From the NCBI GenBank assembly GCA_947626915.1, contig CANQUA010000024.1:1-41512 (forward strand): a stretch of DNA of 41,512 bases, written 5' to 3'. The notes under the pieces were generated by a model that saw only the letters and a list, made by a program, of their open reading frames with translations, was not told the DNA's origin and made no database searches. Both the position numbers and the translations under genes were made by a program. Positions 5,116 to 41,512 of the stretch are shown piece by piece. The stretch's first letter is position 1, and every line of letters begins with the position of its first letter. The stretch comes from an uncultured Lachnospiraceae bacterium (lineage in GTDB: Bacteria > Bacillota > Clostridia > Lachnospirales > Lachnospiraceae).

Positions 5116-5186
5116 TCTGGATGTTTTTGCCTGCCGCCGCAATGCCGGCAGGGCTGCCGGGCCTGGCGGCTCCGCTGTCTGAAAGG

Positions 5187-6584: not shown

Positions 6585-6640
6585 GTGTATTTCCTCCTGT
6601 GCTGTAATGGTCTATCCTTTACTATAACATATTTTGAAGA
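6585..6640 (-). promoter_or_regulatory. Probable extended -10 promoter for the L,D-transpeptidase gene
   Basis: On the minus strand an extended -10 (TGTTATAGT) lies about 40 bases before the start codon, with no convincing -35. Confidence 0.35.
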
Positions 6641-6732
6641 AAAAAGCTATAAAAAATAAATCCTGGCAAAAATTTAGCATAAGCGCGGCTTTGCGAATGG
6701 CGCGGCTGAACGGCTGCAGTTTTGTTCCCGGT

Positions 6733-6756
6733 AAAAATTGGGCGGCAGAGCGCCGC
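6733..6756 (-). terminator. Possible intrinsic terminator of the leftward membrane-protein operon
   Basis: On the minus strand GCGGC-gctct-GCCGC (6742-6756) is followed by AATTTTTAC. It stands about 57 bases after the end of the DUF6056 gene. Confidence 0.45.
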
Positions 6757-6812
6757 GCGCGTTATCGTTCCGTTTTCCGGAATGCGGCGCAGGTTAGGAG
6801 AACAAAGCCCGG

Positions 6813-8737: not shown

Positions 8738-8807
8738 GGCATAGGTTCTCCGCTTGTTTGCTTGGTTTCGGTGCTGTTCCTAATTTTAGGATAAGGCCGG
8801 GAAAAAG

Positions 8808-10445: not shown

Positions 10446-10516
10446 GGCTTACCTCTGATTTTGGCAGTATTTCCAAAAGGCGGAGCGTGGTACCCTGCCC
10501 GTTGGACCGCAATACG

Positions 10517-10545
10517 ATGATAGCATCCGGGTCGGGGGTTGTCAA
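10517..10545 (-). promoter_or_regulatory. Promoter of the leftward DUF6020/DUF6056 operon
   Basis: The minus strand reads TTGACA (10545-10540), a 17-base spacer, and TATCAT (10522-10517), about 70 bases ahead of the DUF6020 start. Confidence 0.75.
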
Positions 10546-10620
10546 GGAATTGCGGCGGCCGCCGGATTGGACGGTTTTCTTTTAACGGGACTATTTTTAA
10601 AAATATGTCGGGCTGGCGGC

Positions 10621-10649
10621 TTGTCCGACGGGAGAAAAGCAGTTATAAT
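10621..10649 (+). promoter_or_regulatory. Promoter of the rightward glycosyltransferase gene
   Basis: TTGTCC (10621-10626), 17 bases, TATAAT (10644-10649). It is back to back with the leftward promoter about 75 bases away. Confidence 0.7.
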
Positions 10650-10698
10650 CAATAGAAAACGTATGGGCGTAGTTTTTGCGGACAGAGAGGCGCAGGAG

Positions 10699-11661
10699 AT
10701 GAAATTTGTGATTGTGACTCCGCGGCAGGATTCCGGCGGGCCGCTGGTGCTGCACGCGCTGTGCAAAGAATTGGAGGAACTGGGACATGAGGCGCAGGTG
10801 TTTTATGCGCCGCGTTATGATTTTGCGGGCCATGAGGTCCGTTACTGGCTGGATATGCCGGTATTTTTGCTTTATGATTTTTTCTGCATGGCGCTGGTCC
10901 GGCTCCTGCCCGTTCCCAGGGTGAAGAATGCGCCCGCGCTGCGCATGTACGCTTACCCGCAGATCAAAGGCTGCCGCCGCCGTCTGTGGCCTTTTGCGGA
11001 TAAGGAGACTGTTGTGGTCTATCCGGAGGTGGTTTCCGGCAATCCTCTGCGCGCGAAACGGGTGGTCCGCTGGTTCCTGTATTTCCACCCTTTCTCCGGG
11101 CGGGACGATGTGTTTAAAAAAGAGGACCTGTTTTTCAGTTATCAGGATACGTATAACGATCCGGCCTGGAACCCGGTATGCAGGACCTTTAAGATCCAGC
11201 GATACGATCTGGATTTGTATAAGCAGACGAATTTTGCCGAGCGGACGGGGACCTGTTATATTATCCGGAAGGGGAAGGATCGGCCTGACCTGCCGAAGGA
11301 GCTGGACGGGATCGTGGTGGATGATCTGCCCGAGCCGGAAAAGGTGAAAGTGTTTAATCAGTGCAAATATTGCGTCAGCTATGATATGTATACGGCGTAT
11401 ATGCAGATCGCGGCCCTGTGCGGCTGTATCCCGGTGGCGGTGCCGGAACCCGGCAGGAAGAAGGAGGATTACGGCTCCGAATACAAGGACCGGTACGGCG
11501 TAGCGTTCGGGACGGATGAGGCGGAGATCGAGTATGCGGTCCGCACGCGGGGGCTGGCCGTGGAGAAGTACCGGAGGATGAACCGGGAAGCCCGGGAATC
11601 GGTCCGCCGGTTCGCGCAGGAGTGCCAGTCTTATTTTTTCGGGGACGCAGAGGGAAAATGA
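10699..11661 (+). CDS. Glycosyltransferase-like protein (GT-B-like C-terminal half)
   Basis: A 320-residue soluble protein. The start MKFVIVTPRQDSGG followed by LHALCKELEELGHEAQVFYAP is the beta-alpha-beta opening of GT-B glycosyltransferases (glycine-rich loop, then an E-x-L-x-x-x-G-H-E helix). In the C-terminal half the segment AALCGCIPVAVPEP corresponds to the donor-site helix/strand of this fold. Family assignment is tentative and the sugar is unknown. I chose the ATG at 10699, with GAGAGG eight bases upstream; a longer frame opens at 10567 but runs through the promoter. It is followed by a PLP enzyme gene in the same direction. Confidence 0.7.
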   Translation: MKFVIVTPRQDSGGPLVLHALCKELEELGHEAQVFYAPRYDFAGHEVRYWLDMPVFLLYDFFCMALVRLLPVPRVKNAPALRMYAYPQIKGCRRRLWPFADKETVVVYPEVVSGNPLRAKRVVRWFLYFHPFSGRDDVFKKEDLFFSYQDTYNDPAWNPVCRTFKIQRYDLDLYKQTNFAERTGTCYIIRKGKDRPDLPKELDGIVVDDLPEPEKVKVFNQCKYCVSYDMYTAYMQIAALCGCIPVAVPEPGRKKEDYGSEYKDRYGVAFGTDEAEIEYAVRTRGLAVEKYRRMNREARESVRRFAQECQSYFFGDAEGK

Positions 11662-11717
11662 CGCGGCCGCGCGAAAGCGGGCGGAGCAAGCCGAAGGGAA
11701 AATGACGCGGCCGCGCG
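11651..11717. repeat. 23-bp direct repeat spanning the end of the glycosyltransferase gene
   Basis: A 23-base sequence beginning AGGGAAAATGACGCGG occurs at 11651-11673 and again at 11695-11717. The first copy contains the stop codon of the glycosyltransferase gene. This looks like a recent small tandem duplication with a 44-base period. Confidence 0.85.
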
Positions 11718-11749
11718 GAGATTAAAATGTTTGGATGGAGGAGCGGTTT

Positions 11750-12688
11750 ATGAGACAATGGCCGGAGCTTTTGACGCCGACGCCGGTCCAATTTATCGGG
11801 ACCTGCGAAAGCGGACAGACTATCTATATGAAGCGGGAGGATTTTCTGGGCTTTTCGTTCGGCGGGAATAAGTGCCGCATCGGCCTGTCGTTTTTAAAGG
11901 ATATGGAGGCGAAAGGCGGGGATTTTCTGGTATCCTACGGAAAGAAGCAGTCCAATCTGAACCGGGTGCTGGCGACCATGTGCCGGAGCCTGGACATACC
12001 CAGTATGATCCTTTCGCCGGATCTGGGGGAACCGGAAGGAACGGACACCTTCAATAAACTCCTGGTCCGGTCCATGGGGAGCCGTTATGTCTCGTGCAGT
12101 CCGGACCGGGTGGCGGAGGCGGTGGAGCAGATTCTGGAATGGCTCCGGGCCCAGGGCTATCGTCCTTATTATATTTATGGGGACAAATTTGGACATGGCA
12201 ACGAGGCCGCCGCCAGAGAGGCCTACCGGAACGTTTACGGGGAGATTCGCCGGTGGGAAGAGGAACAGGGAATCTTTTTCGATTATATTTTTCTGGCCAG
12301 CGCTACCGGCATGACCCAGGGCGGGCTGCTGGCAGGCTGGTATGAGTCCGGCGGGGACGAACAGATCATCGGCGTGTCCGTGGCCCGCGGGCAGGAGACG
12401 GGAGAAGCGGGCGTCAGGCGTTATGCGGGACGGGAAGAGATACCGATCCGTTTCCTGACCGAATATACCTGCGGCGGATACGGGAAATATGATGAGGACA
12501 TAAAGACCGTGATCCGGGAAATGATGGAGCAGCATGGGATTCCTCTGGACCCCACCTATACGGGGAAAGCTTACGCGGGGATGCTCAAATGGCTGAAAGA
12601 CCACGGCGCCGGCCGCGGGAACGTGCTTTTTATCCACACCGGGGGAGCGCCATTGTATTTCGACTATCTCCGGTCCGGCGTAGTATAA
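11750..12688 (+). CDS. PLP-dependent D-cysteine desulfhydrase / ACC deaminase-like enzyme
   Basis: A 312-residue fold-type II PLP enzyme. FGGNKCR (Lys41) is the PLP-binding lysine motif of the ACC deaminase/D-cysteine desulfhydrase family. ASATGMTQGGLLAG is the phosphate-binding glycine-rich loop, and FIHTGGAP near the end is also typical. These enzymes deaminate D-cysteine, D-serine-type substrates or 1-aminocyclopropane carboxylate; sequence alone does not decide which. The ATG at 11750 has ATGGAGGAG as ribosome site, so an upstream ATG at 11735 is rejected. It is convergent with a DegT aminotransferase 18 bases away. The setting among glycan and ligase genes suggests a biosynthetic rather than catabolic use. 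Confidence 0.85.
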   Translation: MRQWPELLTPTPVQFIGTCESGQTIYMKREDFLGFSFGGNKCRIGLSFLKDMEAKGGDFLVSYGKKQSNLNRVLATMCRSLDIPSMILSPDLGEPEGTDTFNKLLVRSMGSRYVSCSPDRVAEAVEQILEWLRAQGYRPYYIYGDKFGHGNEAAAREAYRNVYGEIRRWEEEQGIFFDYIFLASATGMTQGGLLAGWYESGGDEQIIGVSVARGQETGEAGVRRYAGREEIPIRFLTEYTCGGYGKYDEDIKTVIREMMEQHGIPLDPTYTGKAYAGMLKWLKDHGAGRGNVLFIHTGGAPLYFDYLRSGVV

Positions 12689-21595: not shown

Positions 21596-22057
21596 TTATT
21601 CTTTTTCCCAGTATTCGCTGTCGTCATGATGGAACTCTGTGCTGAAAAGAGCGCCGTCCGCTATCTTGCAGAACGGCAGCTCATCTGAACCGTCGGCGAT
21701 AAACGTCAGCTCCGTCTTATCGTCATTGATGCGGAACAGGAACTCCTTATACTCCGCCGATGTTGCGGAGTCTCTCAGCGTAACAACATCCCCGTCCACA
21801 TGAAAATAACCTTTGTAGACCGTGCTGCTCAGGGGTCCTTCGCACATTTGGAACGTGTTAAGCGGTTCCAACGTAACGGTGAAGTCGCCGCCAAATCCGA
21901 CTTCCTCCCATACGAACGTGACCGGTTCGGATACGTAGCTGTCCTCCGAGGAAAAACCGGTCGGCGTCGTTTCTCTTTCATGATTGACTGCATTTGCCTT
22001 ACACGCTGACAACAGCATTGCGCCCACAAGTAATGCAATAAATATAGATTTCTTCAT
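21596..22057 (-). CDS. Small lipoprotein of unknown function
   Basis: A 153-residue exported lipoprotein. The N-terminus KKSIFIALLVGAMLLSAC is a signal peptide with lipobox LSAC, so Cys19 would be acylated and the protein held on the outer face of the membrane. The mature part is acidic and beta-rich (EEVGFGGDFTVTLEP, GYFHVDGDVVTLRD, ELTFIAD) and resembles small META- or lipocalin-like clostridial lipoproteins, but I do not recognise a named family. The start at 22057 has AAGGAGAAA upstream. It sits at the edge of the AT-rich degraded island. Confidence 0.8.
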   Translation of the reverse strand: MKKSIFIALLVGAMLLSACKANAVNHERETTPTGFSSEDSYVSEPVTFVWEEVGFGGDFTVTLEPLNTFQMCEGPLSSTVYKGYFHVDGDVVTLRDSATSAEYKEFLFRINDDKTELTFIADGSDELPFCKIADGALFSTEFHHDDSEYWEKE

Positions 22058-22493
22058 AAATGTTTCTCCTTGCAAACGATTTGTCTGTTCCTTTATAACT
22101 GTATATCAAATATATCATACTGATAAATAAACTACAATGTTGGTTATTCTTAATTTTTTCCTACAACTTTATCACCCCCCCTATCTTAACTACCCTTTAC
22201 TACAAAATTGTCTGTAATATCATACTTAAAGTTCCAAATATCAAAAATATCTGGCACTATGATACTCCAAAATCTTTATTTATATAAAAATCATACTCTT
22301 ACTATTATAAGATTCAAAATTAGTATGGGGAAATAATAAGAAAAGGGTGTTGATGAACACCCTAATGATTGTAGCAATAAAATGATAGAATATACAAAAA
22401 TAGTGTATAAATATAAAACACACCTTTAATTGAAAAGGGACAAATGGGATTATGAGATCGCGCGCAGCGGAGACGACAGAGAGAATTGGATAA
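22058..22493. other. AT-rich gene-free stretch
   Basis: Base composition here is markedly AT-rich compared with the genes on either side, with many stops in all frames. No gene, tRNA or hairpin terminator was found. It probably includes the lipoprotein promoter and the edge of a degraded island. Confidence 0.5.
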
Positions 22494-22706
22494 TGTGGAA
22501 GCTTTTCAAAGCTGTTTCATTTTATGATGGACGATCTGCGGCAAAGGGGATTCACGAAAGCGACGCTTGGCGCAGAACCCGGCGGTATGAAAAACAAAGC
22601 GATCGATACGCACTATGGGTTTTCTGAATATATAAAAACCGGCAGGGAATCTTATCCGGACGGAACCGTAATAGAAGTGGAATATTACGGGAAAATGCTG
22701 GAATGA
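22494..22706 (+). pseudogene. C-terminal remnant of a GNAT N-acetyltransferase
   Basis: The frame from about 22500 reads SKLFHFMMDDLRQRGFTKAT and ends with HYGFSEYIKTGRESYPDGT and VIEVEYYGKML. This matches the last third of GNAT acetyltransferases (helix alpha-3, beta-5, the GF motif and the final strand). The acetyl-CoA-binding part is missing and a TAA stands in frame at 22491-22493. The ATG at 22524 would give only 60 residues, too short to function. Treated as a decayed gene. Confidence 0.6.
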
Positions 22707-22860
22707 TACGATCAGGTTCCGGCTGGCCGGTGAGTGAAAAAGTCCTGTATAAATGACGCAGTGATATGATTTGTCATTCCCCCGCCGCAATGCTGGGTGC
22801 CCGTAAGAAAGTTTTGAAGTCAAAATTATAATTACGGCATCTGTCAGGCTGGATTGGGGC

Positions 22861-22914
22861 GAACCAAAAGCACGGAACAAAGGGAATATTTCCAATGCCT
22901 CGTGCTTTTGGTTC
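22861..22914. repeat. Perfect 14-bp inverted repeat at the hsdR break point
   Basis: GAACCAAAAGCACG (22861-22874) is exactly complementary to CGTGCTTTTGGTTC (22901-22914) around a 26-base loop. It lies where the HsdR-like reading frame loses similarity. There is no T-run after either arm, so it looks like an inserted small palindromic element rather than a terminator. Confidence 0.75.
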
Positions 22915-23119
22915 TAACAGTCGTTGGATTGTAATATATTTGTTGCAAAGTAATCTGCGAAGGCTGCGTGTCCTGCAAAAAGCGGAAAAGTCGTGTCTCA
23001 TCGATAGCGAATTCTTTGCTATAATCGGTGTTCTTGCCTTCCTCGTAACCATTATGCTCTACAAGCCACTTCACAATGAGGGTCTCTAAACCGTTCTCCT
23101 TCGTGTTGGTAACGGGCAT
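22915..23119 (-). pseudogene. hsdR: Truncated type I restriction subunit R (HsdR), N-terminal fragment
   Basis: The frame begins MPVTNTKENGLETLIVKWLV and continues through EFAIDETRLFRFLQDTQP, which I recognise as the N-terminus of type I restriction endonuclease R subunits (normally about 1000 residues). Similarity ends after ~55 residues, and the rest of the frame (to 22844) reads through the palindrome at 22861-22914. AGGAGGAATGACAA gives a good ribosome site and the gene follows the DUF1016 gene by a few bases, so it was once its operon partner. No nuclease or helicase domain remains. Confidence 0.75.
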
Positions 23120-23122
23120 TTG

Positions 23123-24145
23123 TCATTCCTCCTGTTGCTCAATTCGTTTGCGCTCGATTTCGATTTCATGCTGCAGTTCTTCGACAGTAGGCAATTCCAA
23201 CTGATACTTTGACGCGAAGATCTGCTGGGCGTCATTCAAAACCGAATATTTCACGATGGCCTCATTCTTCTGTGAACACAGGATAATGCCTATGGTCGGA
23301 TTGTCATCTGCGTTTTTATAGAGGTCATCGAACATCCGGATATAGCTGTCCATCTGCCCAATATCACCGTGTGTCAGCTTGCCAACTTTCAAGTCGATTA
23401 ACACATGGCACTTCAGAATGCTATGGTAAAAAACAAGGTCGAGATAAAAATCCTCATCCTCATATCGCATCAGCTTTTGCCTGGCGACAAAGCAAAAGCC
23501 GCGTCCGAGTTCCAGCAGAAACTCCTGCAATTTATCTATAAGCGCCTGCTCCAGGTCGGATTCCCGCAAAGCCGGATAATCTTTCAGATCAAGAAATTCC
23601 AACACATATGGGTCTTTGATGAATTCTTCTGCCTCCAGCGGTGCCATCAATTCTCCGGCTTCAGCTCTGACCGGCGCCTTTTCTCTGCTTGCAAGAAGGC
23701 GTTCATAATACAATGTAGAGATCTGCCGCTCCAACTGGCGGCTTGACCACGCGGATGCTGCCGCCTCATTCATATACCACTGCCGCGCCTGTTCGTTTTC
23801 TACCGACAGAAGCAGACGATAATGTGTCCATGTCAATTGCGAACGCAGTGCGTTCGTATTTGGAAACATCACATAAAACTTTTTCATCTGCTGAAGCGTC
23901 CGCACGGAAAAGCCTTTACCAAATTCTTTTGTCAGACGATTGGACAACTCCTGCAATATGGATTTCCCATAGCCGGACCGCAAGTTTCCTTCCTGCTCAT
24001 GCTCCACGATGATGCGGCCGATTTGCCAGTACGCCTGTACCATTGTAAAATTCACAGCGGTGTACGCCTGGTTTCTCGAAGTGAGCAAGGCTTCTTTTAT
24101 TTCAGAGTAGATGTCCTCGTAAGTTGAAAGCTCAACATCTGCCAT
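23123..24145 (-). CDS. DUF1016 / YhcG-like PD-(D/E)XK nuclease-domain protein
   Basis: A 340-residue protein. The N-terminal half (AYTAVNFTMVQAYWQIGRII, LQELSNRLTKEFGKGFS, LTWTHYRLLLSVEN) is the DUF1016 N-terminal helical domain. The C-terminal half has a PD-(D/E)XK-type core: DFYLDLVFYHSILKC followed by VLIDLKVGKL, with Asp in place of the usual Glu before x-Lys. YhcG-like proteins are often encoded inside type I restriction-modification loci; their exact role is unsettled. The start at 24145 is the best methionine, though AGGAGG is about 12 bases upstream. It is apparently intact although its hsdR neighbour is truncated. Confidence 0.85.
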   Translation of the reverse strand: MADVELSTYEDIYSEIKEALLTSRNQAYTAVNFTMVQAYWQIGRIIVEHEQEGNLRSGYGKSILQELSNRLTKEFGKGFSVRTLQQMKKFYVMFPNTNALRSQLTWTHYRLLLSVENEQARQWYMNEAAASAWSSRQLERQISTLYYERLLASREKAPVRAEAGELMAPLEAEEFIKDPYVLEFLDLKDYPALRESDLEQALIDKLQEFLLELGRGFCFVARQKLMRYEDEDFYLDLVFYHSILKCHVLIDLKVGKLTHGDIGQMDSYIRMFDDLYKNADDNPTIGIILCSQKNEAIVKYSVLNDAQQIFASKYQLELPTVEELQHEIEIERKRIEQQEE

Positions 24146-24185
24146 CTTTATTATCCATCCTCCTTGACCCTGACAAAAATATAGT

Positions 24186-24395
24186 TTAGATATGATAGCA
24201 CTCAATTGGTACAGACTCACTATCCAATTCGTCAGAATCGTTAATATACAATTTATGAATCTCTTTTATTCCCGCATTTACCGCAGCAGAAACGATAAGT
24301 CTGCTTTCAAATTCAGGCGTTCTCATTCCGATAATAACCTTGCTGGGCTTCATTTTTATAGGTGTACGCTGTTCCATCATTGCAGGACGAATCAT
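24186..24395 (-). CDS. Small hypothetical protein coupled to the HTH gene
   Basis: A 69-residue basic-then-acidic protein with no signal or membrane segment and no recognised family. It starts inside the stop of the HTH gene (ATGA overlap), which argues for translational coupling and is the main evidence that it is real. It ends about 40 bases before the DUF1016 start. It could also be a worn remnant of a longer gene, given the state of this island. Confidence 0.45.
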   Translation of the reverse strand: MIRPAMMEQRTPIKMKPSKVIIGMRTPEFESRLIVSAAVNAGIKEIHKLYINDSDELDSESVPIECYHI

Positions 24396-30488: not shown

Positions 30489-31043
30489 ATGGGAAAAATA
30501 AAAGTAACGCCCTGTCCGATCGAAGGACTTTATGTGATCGAGCCGGAGGTGCATGTGGATGCGCGGGGCTATTTTGTAGAGACTTATAATCAGCGGGATT
30601 TCCAGGCGGCCGGACTGGACATGGTTTTCGTCCAGGACAATCAGTCCAAATCGTCGAAAGGCGTGCTGCGCGGGCTTCATTATCAGAAGCAGTTTCCGCA
30701 GGGCAAGCTGGTGCGGGTGCTGCGGGGAGCGGTCTTCGACGTGGCGGTGGACCTGCGTACGGCTTCGAAAACGTACGGACAATGGTTCGGCGTAGAGCTG
30801 ACGGAGGACAACAAAAAACAGTTTTATGTATCGCCCGGCTTCGCCCATGGGTTCCTGGTAATGTCCGACGAGGCGGAATTTGCCTACAAGGTCACGGATT
30901 TCTACCATCCCGGCGACGAGGGCGGTCTGGCCTGGGACGATCCGGAGATCGGCGTGGCCTGGCCCCTGGAGGCGGGACAGACGCCCATTCTTTCCGAACG
31001 GGATACGAAATGGGGAGGGCTGAAGGATACGTTTAAGTTCTGA
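30489..31043 (+). CDS. rmlC: dTDP-4-dehydrorhamnose 3,5-epimerase
   Basis: A 184-residue cupin enzyme of normal length. Family motifs are all present: DARGYFVETYN, VQDNQSKSSKGVLRGLHYQ with catalytic His64, FDVAVDLR, FYVSPGFAHGFLV and WDDPEIGVAWP. It converts dTDP-4-keto-6-deoxyglucose to the L-rhamno form, the third step to dTDP-L-rhamnose, in the cytoplasm. Only rmlC is present; rmlA, rmlB and rmlD must lie elsewhere. GGGAAAGGAG precedes the start. It supplies substrate for the rhamnosyltransferase-like genes around it. Confidence 0.96.
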   Translation: MGKIKVTPCPIEGLYVIEPEVHVDARGYFVETYNQRDFQAAGLDMVFVQDNQSKSSKGVLRGLHYQKQFPQGKLVRVLRGAVFDVAVDLRTASKTYGQWFGVELTEDNKKQFYVSPGFAHGFLVMSDEAEFAYKVTDFYHPGDEGGLAWDDPEIGVAWPLEAGQTPILSERDTKWGGLKDTFKF

Positions 31044-31088: not shown

Positions 31089-31901
31089 ATGAATTATGTA
31101 TTATCACTGGCAAAAGAAATCATAAAGAGCAGAAGACTGATCTGGGATCTGGCGAAATCCGATTTCCGCAAGCGGTTCGTGGGATCTTATTTCGGCGTGG
31201 TCTGGATGTTCGTGCAGCCGGTCGTCACGGTGCTGATCTATTTCTTCGTATTCCAGATGGGATTTAAGAGTACGCCCCCGATCCCGGGCTATCCGTACGT
31301 ACTGTGGCTGATTCCCGGCATCGTGCCCTGGTTTTATATGAACGAGACGATGAACTGTGGGACCCAGTGTCTGCAGGAGTACCATTATCTGGTGAAAAAA
31401 GTGGTTTTCCGGGTGGAGATCCTGCCCCTGATCAAACTGCTTTCCTGCCTGTTCGTCCACGCGATCTTTATGCTCATCATGATGGGCGTATTTCTGCTGT
31501 ACGGCGTATTCCCCAGGTTTTCCTGGGTGCAGGTGATCTATTACTGCTTCGCGGCCAGCGTGTTTTCCGTGGCGATCGTATATTTCACCAGCGCGGTCAA
31601 CGTATTTTTCAAGGATATGGCCCAGATCGTCAATATTACGCTGCAGATCGGGATGTGGCTCACCACGATCATGTGGGATCCGGCGATGTTTGAGGGGCAT
31701 CCGGACTGGCTGGACCGGATCCTGCCGCTGAATCCGGTCTGGTATATCGTCAACGGTTACCGCGACAGTATGCTGACCGGAACCGCGTTCTGGACCAAGC
31801 CGGGCGTCACGGTCTATTTCTGGGCGGTGACCATTTTGCTGCTTTTGGCGGGACTCAAGGTATTTAAGAGGCTGCGGCCCCATTTCTCGGATGTGCTGTA
31901 G
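31089..31901 (+). CDS. ABC-2 type polysaccharide export permease (Wzm/TagG/RgpC-like)
   Basis: A 270-residue permease with six membrane helices. The opening with LAKSDFRKRFVGSYFGVVWM and the segment LIPGIVPWFYMNETM are typical of Wzm/TagG/RgpC permeases. With the next gene it forms the exporter that moves a completed lipid-linked polysaccharide across the membrane. Its position among rhamnose genes is like rgpC in streptococcal rhamnan loci. The ribosome site is weak: AGAGGAAGG lies about 15 bases before the ATG. Confidence 0.92.
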   Translation: MNYVLSLAKEIIKSRRLIWDLAKSDFRKRFVGSYFGVVWMFVQPVVTVLIYFFVFQMGFKSTPPIPGYPYVLWLIPGIVPWFYMNETMNCGTQCLQEYHYLVKKVVFRVEILPLIKLLSCLFVHAIFMLIMMGVFLLYGVFPRFSWVQVIYYCFAASVFSVAIVYFTSAVNVFFKDMAQIVNITLQIGMWLTTIMWDPAMFEGHPDWLDRILPLNPVWYIVNGYRDSMLTGTAFWTKPGVTVYFWAVTILLLLAGLKVFKRLRPHFSDVL

Positions 31902-31973: not shown

Positions 31974-33311
31974 ATGGAAACTGCGATCAGCGTGAAAGAC
32001 GTGACGAAGATTTACAAATTATATGACAAGCCCATCGACCGGCTGAAAGAATCGCTGCACCCCTTTCACAAGGAATATCACAAGGATTTTTACGCGTTGA
32101 GCGCCCTGTCCTTTACCGTAGAGAAGGGACAGACGGTGGGAATCATCGGAACCAACGGTTCCGGCAAATCCACGATCCTGAAAATCATTACCGGCGTGCT
32201 TTCGCCCACTACCGGAACGGTGGAGGTGAAAGGCAAGATCTCGGCGCTTCTGGAGCTGGGGGCCGGTTTCAATATGGACTATACCGGCATTGAAAATATC
32301 TACATGAACGGCAGCATGATGGGCTTTTCGCGGAAGGAGATGGACGCGAAGCTGGAGGAGATCCTGGATTTCGCGGACATCGGCGATTTCGTGTACCAGC
32401 CGGTGAAGACCTATTCCAGCGGTATGTTTGTCCGCCTGGCGTTCGCGCTGGCGATCAATGTGGAGCCGGAGATTCTGATCGTGGACGAGGCGCTGTCGGT
32501 GGGCGACGTATTCTTCCAGGCCAAATGCTACCGGCGCATGGAGGAGATCCGCAAGAGCGGCACCACGATCCTGATGGTGACCCACGACATGGGCAGCATC
32601 CTGAAATACTGCGACAAGGTGGTGCTGCTGAACAAGGGCAATTTCGTGGCCGAGGGCACGGCGGCCCATATGGTGGACCTGTATAAGAAAATCCTGGCGA
32701 ACCAGCTGGATCTTCTGGAGGAGGAGCTCCATTCCGACAAATGGAAAGCCGAGGGCCGCGTCAACGATATCACGGCCAAGCCCAAGGGGACGCCCGGCAG
32801 CGGCGCATACGCCGGATTAATGAAAGAGAAAATGACCGTCAATCCCAACCGTACCGAGTACGGCGACGGACGGGCGGAGATCTATGATATGGGGCTGTTC
32901 GACGGCCGGGGCAACCTGACCAACCTGCTCCTGAAGGGCGAACAGTTCACGATCCGGGAGCGGATCCGTTTCCATGCGCCCATACAGGCCCCGATCTTTA
33001 CGTACACGATCAAGGACAAGAAAGGCACGGACCTGACGGGCACCAATACCATGTACGAGGGGACGGACATCAAGCCGGTGAAGCGCGGGGATGAGTACGA
33101 GGTTTCCTTCACCCAGAGGATGACGCTGCAGGGAGGCGAGTACCTGCTGTCCATGAGCTGCACCGGGTTCGAGCAGGGGGAGCATGTGGTTTATCACCGG
33201 CTGTACGATATATTGAACCTGACCGTGATCTCCAATAAGAACACGGTAGGGGTCTACGATATGGAATCGGTCGTAGAAGCGGTGCGGACAGAGGCGAAAG
33301 GACAGGCGTGA
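31974..33311 (+). CDS. ABC polysaccharide exporter ATPase with C-terminal Wzt domain
   Basis: A 445-residue protein. Residues 1-245 are the ATPase: Walker A GTNGSGKST (59-67), signature YSSGMFVRLAFA, Walker B ILIVDEALSVGD, switch VTHDMG. Residues ~286-430 form a beta-rich Wzt_C-like domain (TEYGDGRAEIYDMGLFD, then ERIRFHAPIQAPIFTYTIKD and GGEYLLSMSC). In E. coli O9a and related systems this domain binds the capped end of the O-chain and is needed for export of finished polymers only. Its presence suggests the glycan here is capped before export. It overlaps the next gene by GTGA; GGAGG lies upstream of the ATG. Confidence 0.93.
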   Translation: METAISVKDVTKIYKLYDKPIDRLKESLHPFHKEYHKDFYALSALSFTVEKGQTVGIIGTNGSGKSTILKIITGVLSPTTGTVEVKGKISALLELGAGFNMDYTGIENIYMNGSMMGFSRKEMDAKLEEILDFADIGDFVYQPVKTYSSGMFVRLAFALAINVEPEILIVDEALSVGDVFFQAKCYRRMEEIRKSGTTILMVTHDMGSILKYCDKVVLLNKGNFVAEGTAAHMVDLYKKILANQLDLLEEELHSDKWKAEGRVNDITAKPKGTPGSGAYAGLMKEKMTVNPNRTEYGDGRAEIYDMGLFDGRGNLTNLLLKGEQFTIRERIRFHAPIQAPIFTYTIKDKKGTDLTGTNTMYEGTDIKPVKRGDEYEVSFTQRMTLQGGEYLLSMSCTGFEQGEHVVYHRLYDILNLTVISNKNTVGVYDMESVVEAVRTEAKGQA

Positions 33312-36300
33312 GAACAGAGATGACGAAAACAGAACTGGAAAGAAAGATATTGGGCCTGGTCGAGGCCTACGGGACGGATTATAAAGGGCTTCTGCGGGAC
33401 AATCCGAATCTGGATTACCTCTATGCCTTTTCTCCCCAGCGCGAGAACCTGATGGAATGGTACCCGATGCGCAGGGACGCGAAACTTCTGCAGATCGGTT
33501 CCGATTTCGGCGCGCTGACCGGCGTTTACAGCCGCAAGGTGGCGCAGGTGGACGTGCTGGACACTTCCTGGCCCAGCCTGGAGATCAACCGGGAGCGCCA
33601 TGTGGAGCACGGAGCATGCAAAAATATCCAGTATGTGCAGGGAACGATCGAGGAATATCTGGCCCAGACGAAGGAGCGCTACGATTACATCGTGATCGCC
33701 GGCTCCCTGGACGAGGACTACCAGGAGCAGTTCCGGCTGGTGCGGCGTCTTTTGAAGCCTGCCGGCGAGCTGATCATGGCGGTCTGCAATCCGCTGGGCG
33801 TGAAATACTGGGCGGGGGCGAAAAAGGACGACGTGAGCCTGTCGCTGAAAAAGGTGATCGCGCTTCTGTCGGAGGATGGCACCGGAGAGGATCTGGAGTT
33901 TTATTACCCGATGCCGGACTATAAGCTGCCGGTGACGATCTATTCCGACGCGTATCTGCCGGGGGTTGAGGACCTGGCCGACGCCATCGGGGCTTACGAT
34001 TATCCGAAATATTCGTTTTTTGATGTGGGAGCCGCATACGCCGAGGTCTGCGGGGACGGCCGGTTCACGGAGTTCGCCAATTCCTATCTGGTGATCTGGC
34101 GGCGTTCCGGCAGGAAATATCAGACGGCAGGTCCCGTGTATATGAAATATAACCGGACCCGAGCCGACCGGTTCCAGATCAAGACGGTGATCCTGGGCGG
34201 GCAGGAACACAGGAAAGTGGAGAAGAGCGCGCTGACCGAAGAGGCGGCCGGGCATATACTGGAATTTGGGGACAATTATAAGCGTCTGAGCGCCCAGCAT
34301 AAATTTCTCCGGTTCGCGGAGCCGGAGATCGATGAAACGCGCGCCGCGGCGGTCTTCCCTTACCTGACGGGCCGGTCCTTGGCGGAGCAGGTATACCAGG
34401 AGCTGGTGAACGGTTCGGATCCGGTGGAATTGATCCGGCAGACCATCGACGTGCTGCTGGCGGTGGAAGAGGACGCGCTGGTTCCGTTTGAGGGCACGCC
34501 GGAATTTGCCGAGGTCTTCGGGGAAGAAGCCATGGAGGCTCTGACCGCGCTTTCCGGGACCAGGGAAGAAACCGCGGAGGGAGAGGAAGCGGCGGAGGCG
34601 GAGAGCGCGGCCCCGATGCTCTGTTTCCGGATCTCCAATATCGACCTGTTGTTTGAAAATATTCTTCTGCTCGAATCCCAGGAAGGCGAGAGCGAAATGT
34701 GCTGCCTGGATTACGAGTGGGTGTTTACGTTCCCGATCCCGGTGGATTTTGTGCGCTACCGGATGCTGGCTTATGCTTACCGCCAGTACCGCAGTCTGCT
34801 GGCGGAGCGCGGCTATGAGACGGACGCCGCCTGGATGGAAGCGTTTGGGCTGACGCCGGAGACGGAAGAGATCTACCGGAAGATGGAGGCGGCGTTTCAG
34901 AACTACGTCCATGGGGAGAACCAGCAGATCTATCTGGGCAATTATCTGGTGGAGCTGCGGACCGTGGCCGATTACGGCGTGCTGGACGAGGAGCTGATCC
35001 GCAAGAGGCGGGAGGTTAAGCGGGCCGAGTATGCGGCGGACATGATCCGCTATCAGATGAAAGACCAGGAAGTGCAGATGAAAAATTATGCACTTGCGAA
35101 AGATCAGCTGATGCGCCAGGAGGTGGACCGCCAGATCCAGCTGCGCGAGTGGGCTGTTAAGGAGAAAGAAGAGATCATAGCCGGAAAGGACAGCGTCATC
35201 GAACAGAAAGACAGCGTGATCCGGGAAAAGGACGCGCTGATCCAGAAGATGACGGAGGTGAAGCGCCTGACGGACAATCATGTGACCAATCTGGAAGCGA
35301 TGATCGGCGATATGAAGCACGAGATCGGCGAATTGAACGCCGCGGTCAGCTATTATGTCCGGCACCAGACCCTGTATTCCCGGATCCGCAGAAAACTGGG
35401 CGACCAGTTTAACAAAATGTACCCCAAGGGTTCCGCAAAGAGGGAAAAGCTGCGCCGCATAAAAACATGGTTCCGTCATCCGGTCAGCACTTATAAATTC
35501 TGCCGCAGCGAAGAGGGGCAGAATAAGATCGAGGGGGCCCAGGAAATCGGGGAGGCCTACTGGGAGTACGGGCGGCTCGTGTTCCCCGCAGCGGAGAACC
35601 CGATCGTGTCCATCATCATACCGGTCTACAATCAGCTGGAATACACGTACAAATGCCTCGTCTCGATCCTGGAGCATACGAAAGACGTCAGCTGCGAGAT
35701 CATTATCGCGGACGATGTGTCTACCGACGGCACGGAACGGCTGGGCCGCTATTCCGAAGGTCTGGTGATCTGCCGCAACGAGACAAACCAGGGATTCTTA
35801 AAGAACTGCAACCATGCGGCAAAGCAGGCCCGCGGGCGGTATCTGATGTTTCTGAACAACGATACCCAGGTGACCGAAGGCTGGCTCAGTTCCCTGGTGG
35901 AGCTGATTGAGTCCGACCCGTCCATCGGTATGGTGGGTTCGAAGCTGGTGTTCCCGGACGGACGCCTGCAGGAGGCCGGCGGGATCATCTGGAGCGACGG
36001 TTCCGGCTGGAATTACGGCCGCCTCGACGATCCGGACAAGCCGGAATACAATTATGTGAAAGACGTGGATTATATTTCCGGCGCGGCGATCCTGATCTCC
36101 CATGACCTGTGGAATCAGATCGGCGGCTTCGACGAGCGGTTTGCCCCGGCCTACTGCGAGGATTCTGACCTGGCGTTCGAGGTGCGGAAAGCCGGTTACC
36201 GGGTGGTCTATCAGCCGAAATCGAAGGTGATCCATTTCGAGGGAGTGTCAAACGGCACCGACGTCCAGGGCACGGGGCTCAAGCGCTACCAGGTGGAAAA

Positions 36301-37561
36301 TTCGGAGAAACTCCGGGAAAAATGGGCGGACGAATTTGCGAAGCAGTGCGAGAACAACGGCAATCCCGACCCGTTCCGGGCCAGGGAGCGCAGCATGGGC
36401 AAGACCATTGTGCTGGTCGTGGATCATTATGTGCCGACTTACGACCGGGACGCCGGTTCCAAGACCACGTTCCAGTACCTGAAAATGTTCCTGAAAAAGG
36501 GCCTGGTGGTCAAATTCATCGGCGACAATTACGCGCATGAGGAGCCCTACGCCACGACGCTGGAGCAGATGGGCATCGAGGTGCTGTCCGGGCCCGGGTA
36601 CGCGGTAGGCGTCTGGGATTGGATCAAAAAGCACGGACACGATATCTCCGTCGCCTATCTGAACCGCCCGCATATCGCTTCCCGGTATATCAATTTTATC
36701 CGGGAAAACACAAACATGAAAGTCATTTATTACGGACATGACCTGCATTTCCTGCGGGAGGGCCGGGAATATGAGCTGACGCAGGATCCGGAGCGGAAAG
36801 AGTCGGCAAAATACTGGAAAGCTATCGAAATGTCCCTGATGTATAATTCGGACGTGGTCTATTATCCCTCCTATGTGGAGCGGGACGCGATTCTGGGAGA
36901 GGACGATACGATTCCTGTCAAGGACATCGTGGCCTATGTGTACGAGCAGTTCCGCCAGGATATTCCGGAGAATTACGAAGAGAGAGAGGGCCTTCTCTTT
37001 GTAGGCGGGTTCGGGCATCCGCCCAATGCGGACGCGGTGCTGTGGTTTGCCCGCGAGGTCTACCCGCTGATCCGTCAGAATATGGAAGCCGCGGGCCAGA
37101 CGCCGCCGGTATTCTATGTGGTCGGTTCCAAGGCGACCGACGAGATCCTGGCCCTGGAAGAGCCGGACAATGGCATCGTGATCAAAGGATTCGTCACCGA
37201 GGAAGAATTAACGCGGCTTTACGATACAACCAGGCTGGTGGTGGCGCCGCTCCGTTACGGCGCGGGCGTGAAGGGCAAGATCGTCGAGGCCCTGTATAAC
37301 GGAGCCGCCGTTGTGACCACCTCCATCGGAGCCGAGGGAATCCCGGATGCGGAGACGGTCATGGCCGTTGCCGATGAGGAGCAGGCGTTCGCGGATGTGG
37401 TGACGGAGCTTTACCTGAACCCGGAGGAGTGCCGGGACCTGAGCCTGCGGACCCAGGATTATGTGCGCCGGAATTACAGCATGGACGCGGCCTGGAGCGT
37501 GATCGAGGAGGATTTCCTGCCTCAGGATGCGCGGGATGAGGAAGCGCCGGAGTCCTTTTGA
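33308..37561 (+). CDS. Giant multidomain glycan protein: methyltransferase-like, kinase-like, coiled coil, GT2, GT4
   Basis: A 1417-residue cytoplasmic protein. Residues ~40-270: class I SAM-methyltransferase-like, motif I KLLQIGSDFGALTG (Gly64, Gly68). Residues ~275-560: kinase-like, with a candidate ATP lysine (Lys292, FQIKTVI), a catalytic-loop-like NIDLLFEN (Asp446 x4 Asn451) and CLDYEW (Asp468) in place of DFG. Residues ~575-690: coiled coil with seven-residue units (KDSVIEQ, KDSVIRE, KDALIQK). Residues ~763-1000: GT2 (SIIIPVYNQ, ADDVSTDG, FLNNDTQV, CEDSDLAFEV). Residues ~1030-1410: GT4 (VVDHYVPTYDRDAGS, FVGGFGHPPN, APLRYGAGVKGKI). The start is GTG 33308, overlapping the wzt stop, with AAAGGACAGGC upstream; ATG 33320 is an alternative. 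I infer a polymerase fused to a WbdD-like capping module. Confidence 0.8.
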   Translation: MRTEMTKTELERKILGLVEAYGTDYKGLLRDNPNLDYLYAFSPQRENLMEWYPMRRDAKLLQIGSDFGALTGVYSRKVAQVDVLDTSWPSLEINRERHVEHGACKNIQYVQGTIEEYLAQTKERYDYIVIAGSLDEDYQEQFRLVRRLLKPAGELIMAVCNPLGVKYWAGAKKDDVSLSLKKVIALLSEDGTGEDLEFYYPMPDYKLPVTIYSDAYLPGVEDLADAIGAYDYPKYSFFDVGAAYAEVCGDGRFTEFANSYLVIWRRSGRKYQTAGPVYMKYNRTRADRFQIKTVILGGQEHRKVEKSALTEEAAGHILEFGDNYKRLSAQHKFLRFAEPEIDETRAAAVFPYLTGRSLAEQVYQELVNGSDPVELIRQTIDVLLAVEEDALVPFEGTPEFAEVFGEEAMEALTALSGTREETAEGEEAAEAESAAPMLCFRISNIDLLFENILLLESQEGESEMCCLDYEWVFTFPIPVDFVRYRMLAYAYRQYRSLLAERGYETDAAWMEAFGLTPETEEIYRKMEAAFQNYVHGENQQIYLGNYLVELRTVADYGVLDEELIRKRREVKRAEYAADMIRYQMKDQEVQMKNYALAKDQLMRQEVDRQIQLREWAVKEKEEIIAGKDSVIEQKDSVIREKDALIQKMTEVKRLTDNHVTNLEAMIGDMKHEIGELNAAVSYYVRHQTLYSRIRRKLGDQFNKMYPKGSAKREKLRRIKTWFRHPVSTYKFCRSEEGQNKIEGAQEIGEAYWEYGRLVFPAAENPIVSIIIPVYNQLEYTYKCLVSILEHTKDVSCEIIIADDVSTDGTERLGRYSEGLVICRNETNQGFLKNCNHAAKQARGRYLMFLNNDTQVTEGWLSSLVELIESDPSIGMVGSKLVFPDGRLQEAGGIIWSDGSGWNYGRLDDPDKPEYNYVKDVDYISGAAILISHDLWNQIGGFDERFAPAYCEDSDLAFEVRKAGYRVVYQPKSKVIHFEGVSNGTDVQGTGLKRYQVENSEKLREKWADEFAKQCENNGNPDPFRARERSMGKTIVLVVDHYVPTYDRDAGSKTTFQYLKMFLKKGLVVKFIGDNYAHEEPYATTLEQMGIEVLSGPGYAVGVWDWIKKHGHDISVAYLNRPHIASRYINFIRENTNMKVIYYGHDLHFLREGREYELTQDPERKESAKYWKAIEMSLMYNSDVVYYPSYVERDAILGEDDTIPVKDIVAYVYEQFRQDIPENYEEREGLLFVGGFGHPPNADAVLWFAREVYPLIRQNMEAAGQTPPVFYVVGSKATDEILALEEPDNGIVIKGFVTEEELTRLYDTTRLVVAPLRYGAGVKGKIVEALYNGAAVVTTSIGAEGIPDAETVMAVADEEQAFADVVTELYLNPEECRDLSLRTQDYVRRNYSMDAAWSVIEEDFLPQDARDEEAPESF

Positions 37562-37709
37562 GCGTTTCCATCCGGACCTGCGGAAGGCCGGCCCGCCGTC
37601 CCTGTGATCTGACCGGTACCATGGGAGCGTCCTGGCAAGATGGTAAAAGAGCCGGCGCTCTGAAAGCCTCTGCTGCAGGAAGTTGCGGGACCTGCCGCGC
37701 GGCTTGTTC

Positions 37710-37738
37710 TTGACGGGGGCCGGAGTATCCTGTATGAT
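37710..37738 (+). promoter_or_regulatory. Promoter of the cell-wall-binding cysteine-hydrolase-like gene
   Basis: TTGACG (37710-37715), 17 bases, TATGAT (37733-37738), 38 bases before the start codon. It separates this gene from the polysaccharide operon. Confidence 0.75.
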
Positions 37739-37775
37739 AGAATCGGAACGAAAATACAAGAGCCGGAGGTTTATT

Positions 37776-38804
37776 ATGAAGAAATTATGGAAAAAACAGA
37801 TAAGCACGCTTTTTCTGGCCGTGTTGCTGGCCGTTTTGGCCTGCCAGTGGGCGTGGGCGGCGGTTTCCCCTCTGACCGAGGAAAACGTGTATAACGCCAT
37901 GATAGCGATGAAATCGGAGTATCCCGAAAAGATGAGCTGGACCAACGACAATTTTTACGGGGGCCGGATCGTTTACAAGGATCTTAATGAGAAGGCCTAT
38001 GGCAATACGCTGGGCGGCGGCTTCGGCTGCGCGGGATTTGCATGGATCCTGAGTGACGAGGCGTTCGGCGACCTCCCGGCGAGAGCGGACAGAGACGCCG
38101 ACAGCGTCCGGGTGGGCGATATTCTGCGGATCAGGAACGACGGGCACAGCGTGATCGTACTGGAACGGGATGAAGACACGGTGACAGTGGCGGAGGGGAA
38201 TTACAACGATTCCATCCACTGGGGGAGAAAACTGTCCCTCTCTTCCCTTGCGGAGGATCCTCTGTTCATGCGCATCACCCGCTGGCCGGAGAGGGAAGAG
38301 GACGGGCAGGAACTTGTTCAGCCGGAGGAGCCGCAGCAGACCGTTCAGCCGGACCTGACGTGGTCCAGGACCTGGCTTCTGGACGGTGAGACCTGGTATT
38401 ATTTTAAAGACGACGGCTCCCAGGCAGTCGGGTGGGAATGGATCGGCGGCGATTATTATTATTTCAACGCGGCCGGACAAATGCAGACAGGCTGGTTTCA
38501 GGACGCAGAAGGCGTGTGGTATTTTCTGAATCCGAAACACGACGGCACATACGGATGTATGCAGACGGGCTGGCTGCAGGACGGAGGCGACTGGTATTTC
38601 CTGAATCCGGAGCATGACGGATACGGGCAGATGCTGCAGAACGGATGGAAATGGATCGACGGCTATTCCTATTATTTCGACGCCAGCGGAAGAATGGCGG
38701 CGGACTGTGAGACCCCGGATCATTACCGGGTGAACGCTTCCGGACAATGGGTCGAGAACGGAATCCCCCAGTATAACCCGGGCGCGGGCATCCGGACGAA
38801 ATAG
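37776..38804 (+). CDS. Exported CHAP/NlpC-like protein with cell-wall-binding repeats
   Basis: A 342-residue secreted protein. It has a signal peptide (hydrophobic 10-23, cleavage after AWA near residue 28). Residues ~30-185 look like a papain-like wall hydrolase: Cys85 in GFGCAGFAW, then RVGDILRIRNDGHSVIVLE with His124 and EGNYND with Asn142, an order seen in CHAP/NlpC-type domains. Residues ~205-325 are W/Y/F cell-wall-binding repeats (TWYYFKDDGS, DYYYFNAAGQ, VWYFLNPK, DWYFLNPEH, YSYYFDASG), like those of the transpeptidase and the first surface protein in this window. Enzymatic activity is inferred only. GCCGGAGG precedes the ATG. Confidence 0.8.
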   Translation: MKKLWKKQISTLFLAVLLAVLACQWAWAAVSPLTEENVYNAMIAMKSEYPEKMSWTNDNFYGGRIVYKDLNEKAYGNTLGGGFGCAGFAWILSDEAFGDLPARADRDADSVRVGDILRIRNDGHSVIVLERDEDTVTVAEGNYNDSIHWGRKLSLSSLAEDPLFMRITRWPEREEDGQELVQPEEPQQTVQPDLTWSRTWLLDGETWYYFKDDGSQAVGWEWIGGDYYYFNAAGQMQTGWFQDAEGVWYFLNPKHDGTYGCMQTGWLQDGGDWYFLNPEHDGYGQMLQNGWKWIDGYSYYFDASGRMAADCETPDHYRVNASGQWVENGIPQYNPGAGIRTK

Positions 38805-39933: not shown

Positions 39934-41169
39934 TTATGAGCGGCGGAGGGCCCTGAGTTCTGCTTCTAACCGGGCGATCTGCTCAGCCTGCCGGGTGTTC
40001 TCCTTTTTCTGCATAATGATTTCCTGCTTTTGCTCGGCGATTTCCCGCCGCAGTTTTTTCTTTTCTTCGCTGCTCTGGTACTTTACCGCTTCTACGTCCA
40101 TTTCATATAATACTTCTGAAAACACGCCCAGCACCTCCCCAATCTCTCTCCGGTATTCCGACAGGTCGTGGTACATTTCTTCGAATACCGGGTCAAAATG
40201 GCTGATTTCCCAGATCCGTTCCAGATCGTCGAACGCCAGGAAACCCAGCCACGCTTCCAGTTCCGTTTCGATAGTTCTATTATGAAGCTTTTCGCGGAAA
40301 AGGTCAAGGGGAATGAAAATATATTCCTGCAGCAGCGGCAGGTTCAGACCGCTGTCGAAGACCTGCTTTCCCCGGTGGATGTATGTTTCCGGATAGCGGT
40401 GGAACTCCGCCGAGCTTTTCTGCATGATTACGATCGTGTATACATTCTGCATCCTTTTGTAGCGGACCGGGGCGGTTTTCCCGCCGCTTCCTTTCAGCGA
40501 TGTGTACTGCCGCAGAACCAGGTCGCTGGAGTAGCTGGCGGCGCGCTCGCCCGGAAATTGGTACGGTTCCCGCTGGATCTCTGTGTTCGCGTAGGAATGG
40601 TCGTCCAGCTCTACCACGATGTCCATGATGACGAGTGGGCTCCGGGCCACGATCCGCCCGCCCTCGTTGGGAAGCACGTTTTTTACGCGGACCGGGCGGT
40701 CCAGCAGGCTGGACAGGAAGCGGGAGAGGCGGCCGCGGCGCGCTGTCGGACTGAACACGTATTTGAAGAACGGGTCGTAGCAGACCGCAATGCCCCGCGC
40801 GCCGCTGCACATATCCAGGAATTGTTCGCGGCGCTCCGGCGTCAGGCCGTAAAATCGGTCCAGCAGTTCCGGAGAAGCGGTGATCTGCGCGAGAATCTCC
40901 TTTCGCGGGATCCGCGGTCCCATCGCTTCGTACCAGGGCGTTCGGGCTGCGTCGGTGAGGTTGGAATGATGCTCTGCTGTACGATCCGGCGGCGTTTGGT
41001 TCGGGTCGCTGTCGGCCGCGCCGGTTCGGCTGTCTGTAGCGGAAATTTTGCGGCCGTCGTTTAAGACTCCGCTGCCGGTATCCGACCGTTTGCTGTCGGC
41101 TGCCGGTTCATTTGACAGGCCGGCTGTTTCGCCGGAACTTCCGCCGGCGATTCCTTTTTGTCTGCACAT
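39934..41169 (-). CDS. Rpn/PD-(D/E)XK nuclease-family protein
   Basis: A 411-residue protein. The first ~75 residues are polar and probably disordered. The middle matches the PD-(D/E)XK family annotated as transposase-like or Rpn recombination-promoting nuclease: CYDPFFKYVFS, then RFLSSLLDRPVRVKNVLPNE, VIMDIVVELDD (Asp183) and ANTEIQRE (Glu197-x-Gln199), the variant E-x-Q active site of this group. LRQYTSLKGSGG and VYTIVIMQKSS follow. The C-terminus is a coiled coil (REIAEQKQEIIMQKKENTRQ). Such proteins are multicopy in clostridia and may cut DNA during recombination. The start at 41169 has AAGGGGGAAA upstream; an ATG at 41214 is less likely. Confidence 0.85.
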   Translation of the reverse strand: MCRQKGIAGGSSGETAGLSNEPAADSKRSDTGSGVLNDGRKISATDSRTGAADSDPNQTPPDRTAEHHSNLTDAARTPWYEAMGPRIPRKEILAQITASPELLDRFYGLTPERREQFLDMCSGARGIAVCYDPFFKYVFSPTARRGRLSRFLSSLLDRPVRVKNVLPNEGGRIVARSPLVIMDIVVELDDHSYANTEIQREPYQFPGERAASYSSDLVLRQYTSLKGSGGKTAPVRYKRMQNVYTIVIMQKSSAEFHRYPETYIHRGKQVFDSGLNLPLLQEYIFIPLDLFREKLHNRTIETELEAWLGFLAFDDLERIWEISHFDPVFEEMYHDLSEYRREIGEVLGVFSEVLYEMDVEAVKYQSSEEKKKLRREIAEQKQEIIMQKKENTRQAEQIARLEAELRALRRS

Positions 41170-41512
41170 AAAAATATTTCCCCCTTTTGCATAAATGCCG
41201 CGGCCGGTCAACAAACCACCGCCGAAACTACGGTTACGTCAAAATGGAATCCACCGGGGAAACCCCGAACAGATACCGGATACGGGCAGGACACAGACAT
41301 CCTGCCGACAGATTCAGTGTATCACATAAAGAGGGAACGGGCAAGCGGAAATTTCTGCTTGCGGGAACCAGGCGGATGTGATAAGATAGTCACGTAGAAC
41401 AAGGACAGGCGACCTGCCCCCTCAAAAACCGGAACGTTTTTGGGGGGGCAGCGTGCGTTTCTGCGCTGCCGGCCGTACCGCTCCGTGACAAAACGCAGCA
41501 GGCGGAGAGACC
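41170..41512. other. Window end: leader of the nuclease gene and a terminator
   Basis: No gene is supported. A hairpin (GGCAGGA at 41285-41291, TCCTGCC at 41300-41306) lies in the leader of the nuclease gene. The strong hairpin at 41414-41451 is listed separately. Confidence 0.45.
41414..41451. terminator. Strong hairpin near the window end
   Basis: CTGCCCCCTCAAAAAC (41414-41429) pairs with GTTTTTGGGGGGGCAG (41436-41451) with one wobble and a 6-base loop. It looks like a terminator; its gene is probably beyond the window edge or it is a stand-alone palindrome. Confidence 0.5.

Follow-up and report, generated by a model that had tools for sequence, protein, structure and literature searches.

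The window analysed here, a 41,512-nucleotide stretch from an uncultured Lachnospiraceae bacterium (positions 1 to 41,512 of contig CANQUA010000024.1, assembly GCA_947626915.1), carries directly after the ABC exporter genes wzm and wzt a single open frame of 1417 codons (33308-37561, forward strand). The encoded protein joins a methyltransferase, a kinase-like domain, a coiled coil, a GT2 and a GT4 glycosyltransferase module in this order, and this architecture is certain. The protein probably acts as a one-chain machine that builds, measures and caps a lipid-linked surface polysaccharide for Wzm/Wzt export, working like ORF6 of the Klebsiella O7 antigen (ORF6-O7). In the proposed mechanism, the GT2 and GT4 modules would extend the lipid-linked chain near the membrane, while the coiled coil would hold the head formed by kinase and methyltransferase at a set distance, and only a chain reaching the head would have its non-reducing end phosphorylated and then methylated. 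The cap would halt extension and would be recognised by the Wzt_C domain, leading to export through Wzm/Wzt. We infer the chemistry of the cap, its reading, the ruler function of the coil, the identity of the sugars and the control of chain length by one protein.

Architecture of the fused protein

The GTG start of the fused gene shares the bases GTGA (33308-33311) with the TGA stop of wzt, and an alternative in-frame ATG lies at 33320. Pfam places Methyltransf_25, the best methyltransferase family, at residues 61-153 (E 2.5e-7), Glycos_transf_2 at 768-888 (3e-25) and Glyco_trans_1_4 at 1228-1369 (4.4e-19), with no match across residues 162-766. The initial annotation, made from the letters alone, had described one 1417-residue frame starting inside the wzt stop codon, ordered as above, ending in GT2 and GT4 modules and belonging to a Gram-positive. 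All of this is borne out by the GTGA overlap, the order of the Pfam matches, the Wzt_C domain in the preceding gene (7.5e-43) and the family Lachnospiraceae. The S-adenosylmethionine (SAM) methyltransferase motif I that it had read at Gly64 and Gly68 holds as well, with the two glycines kept in 42/47 and 41/47 aligned sequences, respectively.

The kinase-like domain and its probable relation to ORF6-O7

When plasmids were searched with the methyltransferase-kinase of a distantly related locus (L122), two proteins emerged, one of 1457 residues from Pseudomonas asturiensis and one of 649 from Citrobacter braakii, each encoded directly after two ABC exporter genes. In the Pseudomonas protein, an unannotated stretch separates a methyltransferase from two GT2 domains, and the kinase profile of the family matches this stretch (hhalign, 96%, P 1.8e-9, 204 columns) as well as the Citrobacter protein (61%, P 8e-5). 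The catalytic Asp and Asn align in both, Asp446 with Asp443 of the Pseudomonas protein, and the methyltransferase profile of the family matches the two at 1.5e-47 and 5.3e-48, respectively, in a set of four proteins. For ORF6-O7, the methyltransferase residues Y28, Y66, G91, G93, E112 and Y158 and the catalytic Asp 441 have been published (PMC11231755). In the Pseudomonas protein, where the motifs were looked up, all six methyltransferase residues stand at the same numbers and the catalytic Asp at 443. By the residue numbers in that paper, both proteins are taken as ORF6 relatives, and through the Pseudomonas protein the fused protein is probably homologous to ORF6-O7 in both methyltransferase and kinase. 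ORF6-O7 phosphorylates a mimic of its repeat unit fully and methylates it partly, and the exchange D441A abolishes phosphorylation (PMC11231755); the kinase assignment thus follows from probable homology, one step removed, to an enzyme with demonstrated kinase activity, not from a resemblance to WbdD. Plasmid pF217-3 of Citrobacter braakii (L139), typed as conjugative, holds an O-antigen-like cluster with rml genes, an ABC exporter, the methyltransferase-kinase and glycosyltransferases.

Within the family, Asp446, Asn451, Asp468, Glu470, Trp471 and Gly355 are invariant in 41/41 aligned domains, window included, and Lys306, Arg285, Thr293 and His316 are identical in 40/41, the one exception being the masked sequence L045, which has a gap there. 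The catalytic loop mostly reads N-x-D-x4-N, without the usual His. The initial annotation had proposed a kinase-like triad, of which Asp446, Asn451 and Asp468 stood, whereas its Lys292 is not conserved and gives way to Lys306 as the conserved lysine. When the kinase profile was aligned with L127, a Pfam APH protein (1.1e-10), hhalign gave 90% (P 1.5e-6) with the Lys, the D-x4-N loop and the metal-binding Asp of the APH or protein-kinase-like kind in register (Lys306, Asp446, Asn451, Asp468). The score of 49.0 compares with a maximum of 27.9 among 564 other open reading frames (ORFs) of the fetched loci. Fourteen sequences from Pfam-APH loci, picked by their catalytic motif, lie above the 564-ORF background as a group (p 3.6e-6); one by one, 4 are outscored by none or by two of its ORFs, and the other 10 fall within it. 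Homology of the domain to kinases is well supported.

Besides those ten sequences, several results speak against the kinase assignment. L127 had been found with the same kinase profile, so its match is no independent draw. The triad is incomplete in the linking proteins, where the counterpart of Lys306 is a His (Pseudomonas) and that of Asp468 a Glu (Citrobacter), and the Citrobacter numbers are one off the published ones (27, 65, 92, 94, 113 and 159; Asp 446). Neither Pfam nor NCBIfam nor PHROGs matched the kinase region of the window, and no Pfam family matches more than 2 of 40 kinase members. The 40-sequence profile found nothing at E < 0.1 among solved structures (JAK1 0.24, corramycin phosphotransferase 0.78), and AlphaFold2, run on residues 254-584 with no alignment, gave a mean predicted local distance difference test score of 40.6, at which the pocket is not inspectable. 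With the N-terminal 601 residues, the search of solved structures yielded methyltransferases and, at E 0.097, an uncharacterised protein; L126 and L127 alone retrieved nothing under 0.6.

The lack of a Pfam or solved-structure match, together with the loss of the Lys306 and Asp468 equivalents in one linking protein each, would fit a pseudokinase or a sugar-binding fold accompanied by a plain methyl cap, as proposed for WsaE of Geobacillus, which has a methyltransferase, two glycosyltransferases and methyl capping (PMC2943079). We regard this as very unlikely: Asp446, Asn451 and Asp468 are invariant in the family and Lys306 is present in every unmasked row, the O7 relative is an active kinase (PMC11231755), and the domain is kept where the methyltransferase is degraded, the opposite of what this explanation predicts.

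The capping and ruler module had also been called WbdD-like. The order of methyltransferase, kinase and coil beside wzm and wzt is that of WbdD from E. coli O9a (PMC3482155, PMC5082667), and a true WbdD orthologue with polymerase modules appended would show the same order. The WbdD sequence compared, from E. coli HS, itself matches Pfam APH (2.4e-9), but it scores 12.5 with our kinase profile, within the background. Homology to the WbdD kinase was therefore not found, which, with a single WbdD sequence and with 10 of the 14 APH sequences likewise inside the background, is a weak negative. The best BLASTP piece between the two proteins reaches E 0.02 over 29 residues, and the methyltransferase and kinase profiles of the family match ORF6-like proteins instead. 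WbdD orthology is accordingly an extremely improbable explanation, and the label WbdD-like is not supported for the kinase; the most fitting description of the protein is a variant, probably homologous, of ORF6-O7, not a WbdD.

The proposed cap and its reader

The product of the preceding gene, Wzt, ends in a Wzt_C domain, the proposed reader of the cap. Among 348 Lachnospiraceae genomes, Wzt_C occurs in 207: in 168/173 genomes with the methyltransferase-kinase and in 39/175 without it. When matches are split at E 1e-34, a value set after inspecting the data, strong Wzt_C occurs in 164/173 versus 5/175 genomes and weak Wzt_C in 4/173 versus 34/175. The post hoc threshold and the relatedness of the genomes, by which the p-values of co-occurrence are overstated, both weaken the argument. 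Co-occurrence with one class of Wzt_C is what a pair of cap and reader predicts. Another terminator in the five genomes with strong Wzt_C and no methyltransferase-kinase match was considered and rejected. In four of them the kinase is still there (5e-47 to 3e-55 with its profile) beside a methyltransferase that is shortened or altered in motif I; the contig of the fifth, G170, breaks off right behind wzt.

At the level of loci, Wzt_C lies within 5 kb of the kinase gene in 38/40 loci of 15-18 kb each. The fetched loci hold 74 kinase proteins. Of the 68 in which a tail of 82 residues or more follows the kinase, 65 are encoded no further than 5 kb from Wzt_C, as against none of the 4 complete tail-less ones (Fisher p 3.4e-5); the other two, L123 and L196, stop at contig ends and are left out of the comparison. 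The 74 proteins exclude 22 gene-only loci of the window's genus (L169-L190) and proteins that fell short of the profile threshold of 1e-8, and the loci were picked by match quality and contig extent, not randomly. The kinase proteins of L067 (7004-8695), L137 (10171-11853), L138 (9231-10901) and L126 (9348-10154) end soon after the kinase, have no coil tail and are not beside Wzt_C; the methyltransferase is fused in three of them and separate in L126. Five genomes have the methyltransferase-kinase and no Wzt_C (G076, G188, G277, G279 and G313), and the one protein inspected, that of G188, is without a coil tail.

These short proteins imply that the enzyme pair can act outside cap-and-export, and they favour the view that kinase and methyltransferase decorate sugars along the chain, with the coil as scaffold only and the processivity of the polymerase setting chain length. 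Co-occurrence with one class of Wzt_C, the near-constant coil length described below and the termination chemistry demonstrated for the apparent homologue ORF6-O7 (PMC11231755) all argue against decoration, which we consider unlikely. Capping at the chain end is the reading we retain.

The putative methyl part of the cap would be less uniform. Both motif I glycines are present in 91/99 methyltransferase matches; among the remaining eight, L043 has only a Ser for the first Gly and L078 was matched only in its later part. Counting against a phosphate-and-methyl cap throughout the family, 7 methyltransferase rows have one or both motif I glycines altered or missing, so methylation cannot be general. 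In L131, L132, L133 and L134, and also in L052 and L056, the SAM-binding motif is lost or altered and the kinase and Wzt_C are kept, which suggests a phosphate-only cap where the methyltransferase is degraded. Since phosphorylation alone is enough to terminate chains in WbdD (PMC3482155), a cap made by the kinase only is plausible.

Coil length and the proposed ruler

Two distances were taken in 54 GT2-GT4 proteins, of which the window's genus supplies 24: the first runs from a conserved ExxF that follows the kinase to a conserved LTxxHVxN anchor, the second from the anchor to GT2. The first distance is 66 residues in 25/54 proteins, 73 in 13, 67 and 70 in 4 each and 127 in 2, and 63, 69 and 89 occur in one protein each. 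The value 66 is found in 19/30 proteins outside the genus, with a mean pairwise identity of 0.40 among the 25 segments of this length; 127 belongs to the window protein and its 97%-identical relative. The second distance is 92 in 50/51 proteins. The N-terminal part of the kinase ranges from 114 to 247 residues (52/54 measured), and the GT2-GT4 spacing is 285 in 48/54, so that constancy is not unique to the coil.

The coiled coil announced in the initial annotation between kinase and GT2 is recovered in the relatives: the mean hydrophobicity of 24 equal-length ones is periodic at 3.5 across 84 columns (p 0.0015 by shuffling). Five stretches were tried, among which the near part gave 0.0055, the far part alone p 0.12 and the two ends nothing. 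The 61 extra residues of the window protein (~582-645) have a seven-residue period of their own (p 0.0015 over periods 3 to 12). No DNA tandem repeats were found behind the extension, where one pair of 21-base copies has 71% identity. At ~1 nm per heptad, the figure given with the 20 nm coil of WbdD (PMC5082667), the 84 columns correspond to ~12 nm, and the window coil with its extra 61 residues would measure ~21 nm, near the WbdD value. Insertions into the WbdD coil lengthen chains and truncations shorten them (PMC5082667). The coil looks like a ruler, and a longer glycan is predicted in this strain. Within the length-locked segment, residues 685-745 have a net charge of +12, and this basic stretch may touch the membrane.

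Three observations count against a ruler: the anchor motif is missing in 3/54 proteins, the whole coil of the window is not significant at period 3.5 (p 0.34), and 61 is not a multiple of seven. A distance of 66 in many diverged lineages, extended by 7 in one clade within the window's genus and by 61 in the window's lineage, would amount to a natural series of rulers in one covalent machine, in which coil length would predict chain length. Several lineages with a degraded methyltransferase retain the kinase together with Wzt_C of the same class, and there the kinase alone would be a sufficient terminator. The two proposals together we put forward tentatively, as possible and somewhat short of probable.

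Distribution and variation of the architecture

Relatives of residues 1-691 were found in 173/348 Lachnospiraceae genomes, the window's own included (E <= 1e-10). Among genome contigs, one related locus was found, L008 (97% identical), and among viral contigs none. The kinase profile, searched across the phylum, matched in 11/398 genomes, 4 of them in the same family including the window's own genome, and one of the 7 matches outside the family is the APH protein L127. In the window's genus, the protein is present in 24/26 genomes and fused in all 24 read. In the 40 loci, the methyltransferase is either part of the kinase frame or a separate gene just upstream, and GT2 and GT4 follow the coil on the kinase protein in 24/40. 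A tree of the 54 GT2-GT4 members requires at least five changes between fused and split states, four of them forced by starred branches. The tree excludes the coil columns and was made with a quick method, with the Shimodaira-Hasegawa-like approximate likelihood ratio test as sole support, and the program warned of long branches.

The modules behind the coil differ in kind, with WbsX and RgpF in L121 and RgpF and HAD in L133, as expected if different polymerases join one terminator. In L121, a methyltransferase-kinase protein (7828-11958) continues into the WbsX and RgpF domains, and no Wzt_C was found in the 258-residue Wzt near it. In L133, the kinase protein (4921-8457) runs on into RgpF and a HAD-type hydrolase domain.

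Comparison with known systems

The initial annotation had inferred a covalent union of polymerase, ruler and terminator, unlike the separate mannosyltransferases of E. coli O9a. As a new principle this is not supported: the single-protein design that polymerises, measures and terminates is already known from WbbB of K. pneumoniae O12 and, closest, from ORF6-O7 (PMC11231755), and WsaE is a further earlier fusion (PMC2943079). Like the protein described here, ORF6-O7 has a methyltransferase, a kinase unrecognised by databases, a coil and two polymerase modules in more than 1400 residues at a Wzm/Wzt locus, with the catalytic Asp at a similar position (441 versus 446). It differs in an immunoglobulin-like carbohydrate-binding module (CBM) between kinase and coil and in its two terminal GT2 modules (PMC11231755). 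In our protein, the spacing leaves no room for a CBM, with the conserved kinase reaching to ~540 and the coil starting from ~556, and behind GT2 comes a GT4-like module. WbbB likewise combines a terminator, two glycosyltransferase modules and a coiled-coil ruler in one polypeptide, but its terminator is a Kdo transferase (PMC11231755). In E. coli O9a, the coil of WbdD serves as the ruler, as proposed here, and the polymerase WbdA is a separate protein (PMC3482155, PMC5082667), whereas GT2 and GT4 share the frame in the window. WsaE of G. stearothermophilus is likewise from a Gram-positive wzm-wzt locus and has an N-terminal methyltransferase and two glycosyltransferase domains; unlike our protein, its description, by which alone it was compared, reports a methyl cap and no kinase, and an additional length factor is possibly required in that system (PMC2943079).

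What is different here is the GT2-GT4 pair, the missing room for a CBM, the split forms, the degradation of the methyltransferase in some lineages, the Lachnospiraceae host and the near-fixed coil with discrete longer variants. The paper on O7 (PMC11231755) names relatives from the alpha- and gammaproteobacteria, from cyanobacteria and from an archaeon; the term Gram-positive is absent from its main text. In searches of the open-access literature aimed at Lachnospiraceae or Gram-positives, no listed title or abstract described such a system, and in a paper on the C. difficile S-layer glycan (PMC6254364) work on WbdD was found in the reference list only.

Organization of the locus

The coordinates of the features are collected in Table 1. 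The rmlC-like gene upstream of the exporter suggests a rhamnose-containing glycan. Directly 3' of the fused gene (37683-38804) a protein with cell-wall repeats of the choline-binding type is encoded, and a gene of the PDDEXK_2 transposase family lies at 39934-41214. Between 22001 and 24220 the GC content is lower (0.42 over 22001-24000), and a YhcG-type nuclease is encoded there at 23123-24220.

Table 1. Features of the exporter locus and of the fused protein, in window coordinates
Feature	Position	Strand	Evidence
rmlC-like dTDP-4-dehydrorhamnose 3,5-epimerase gene	30489..31043	+	Pfam PF00908 2.1e-72
wzm, ABC exporter membrane subunit	31089..31901	+	Pfam ABC2_membrane 5.7e-13
wzt, ABC exporter ATPase; C-terminal Wzt_C at 32850-33263	31974..33311	+	ABC_tran 1.3e-23, Wzt_C 7.5e-43
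Fused protein (1417 residues), proposed terminator, ruler and polymerase	33308..37561	+	Open frame, start overlap
Methyltransferase domain, residues ~1-270; motif I Gly64/Gly68 at 33497-33511	33308..34117	+	Pfam, conservation
Kinase-like domain, residues ~275-550	34130..34957	+	Conservation; hhalign to APH protein and Gram-negative methyltransferase-kinase; background control
Kinase residues Lys306, Asp446, Asn451, Asp468	34223-34225, 34643-34645, 34658-34660, 34709-34711	+	Conservation
Putative coiled-coil ruler, residues ~556-698	34973..35401	+	Periodicity in relatives and window; spacing
61 extra coil residues relative to family mode, approximate place ~582-645	35051..35242	+	Anchor distance 127 vs 66; seven-residue periodicity p 0.0015
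Length-locked segment, residues 654-745, LTDNHV motif to GT2	35267..35542	+	92 residues in 50/51 proteins
GT2 glycosyltransferase module, residues ~763-1010	35594..36337	+	Pfam 3e-25
GT4-like glycosyltransferase module, residues ~1041-1410	36428..37537	+	Pfam Glyco_trans_1_4 4.4e-19

Conclusions

With the fused protein, a mechanism established for the O antigens of Gram-negatives would extend to Firmicutes of the gut. The coil-length variants of 66, 70, 73, 89 and 127 residues occur with the same kind of polymerase, which makes the idea of a ruler testable in existing strains, and the lineages with a degraded methyltransferase raise the question whether a bare phosphate may be enough for export.

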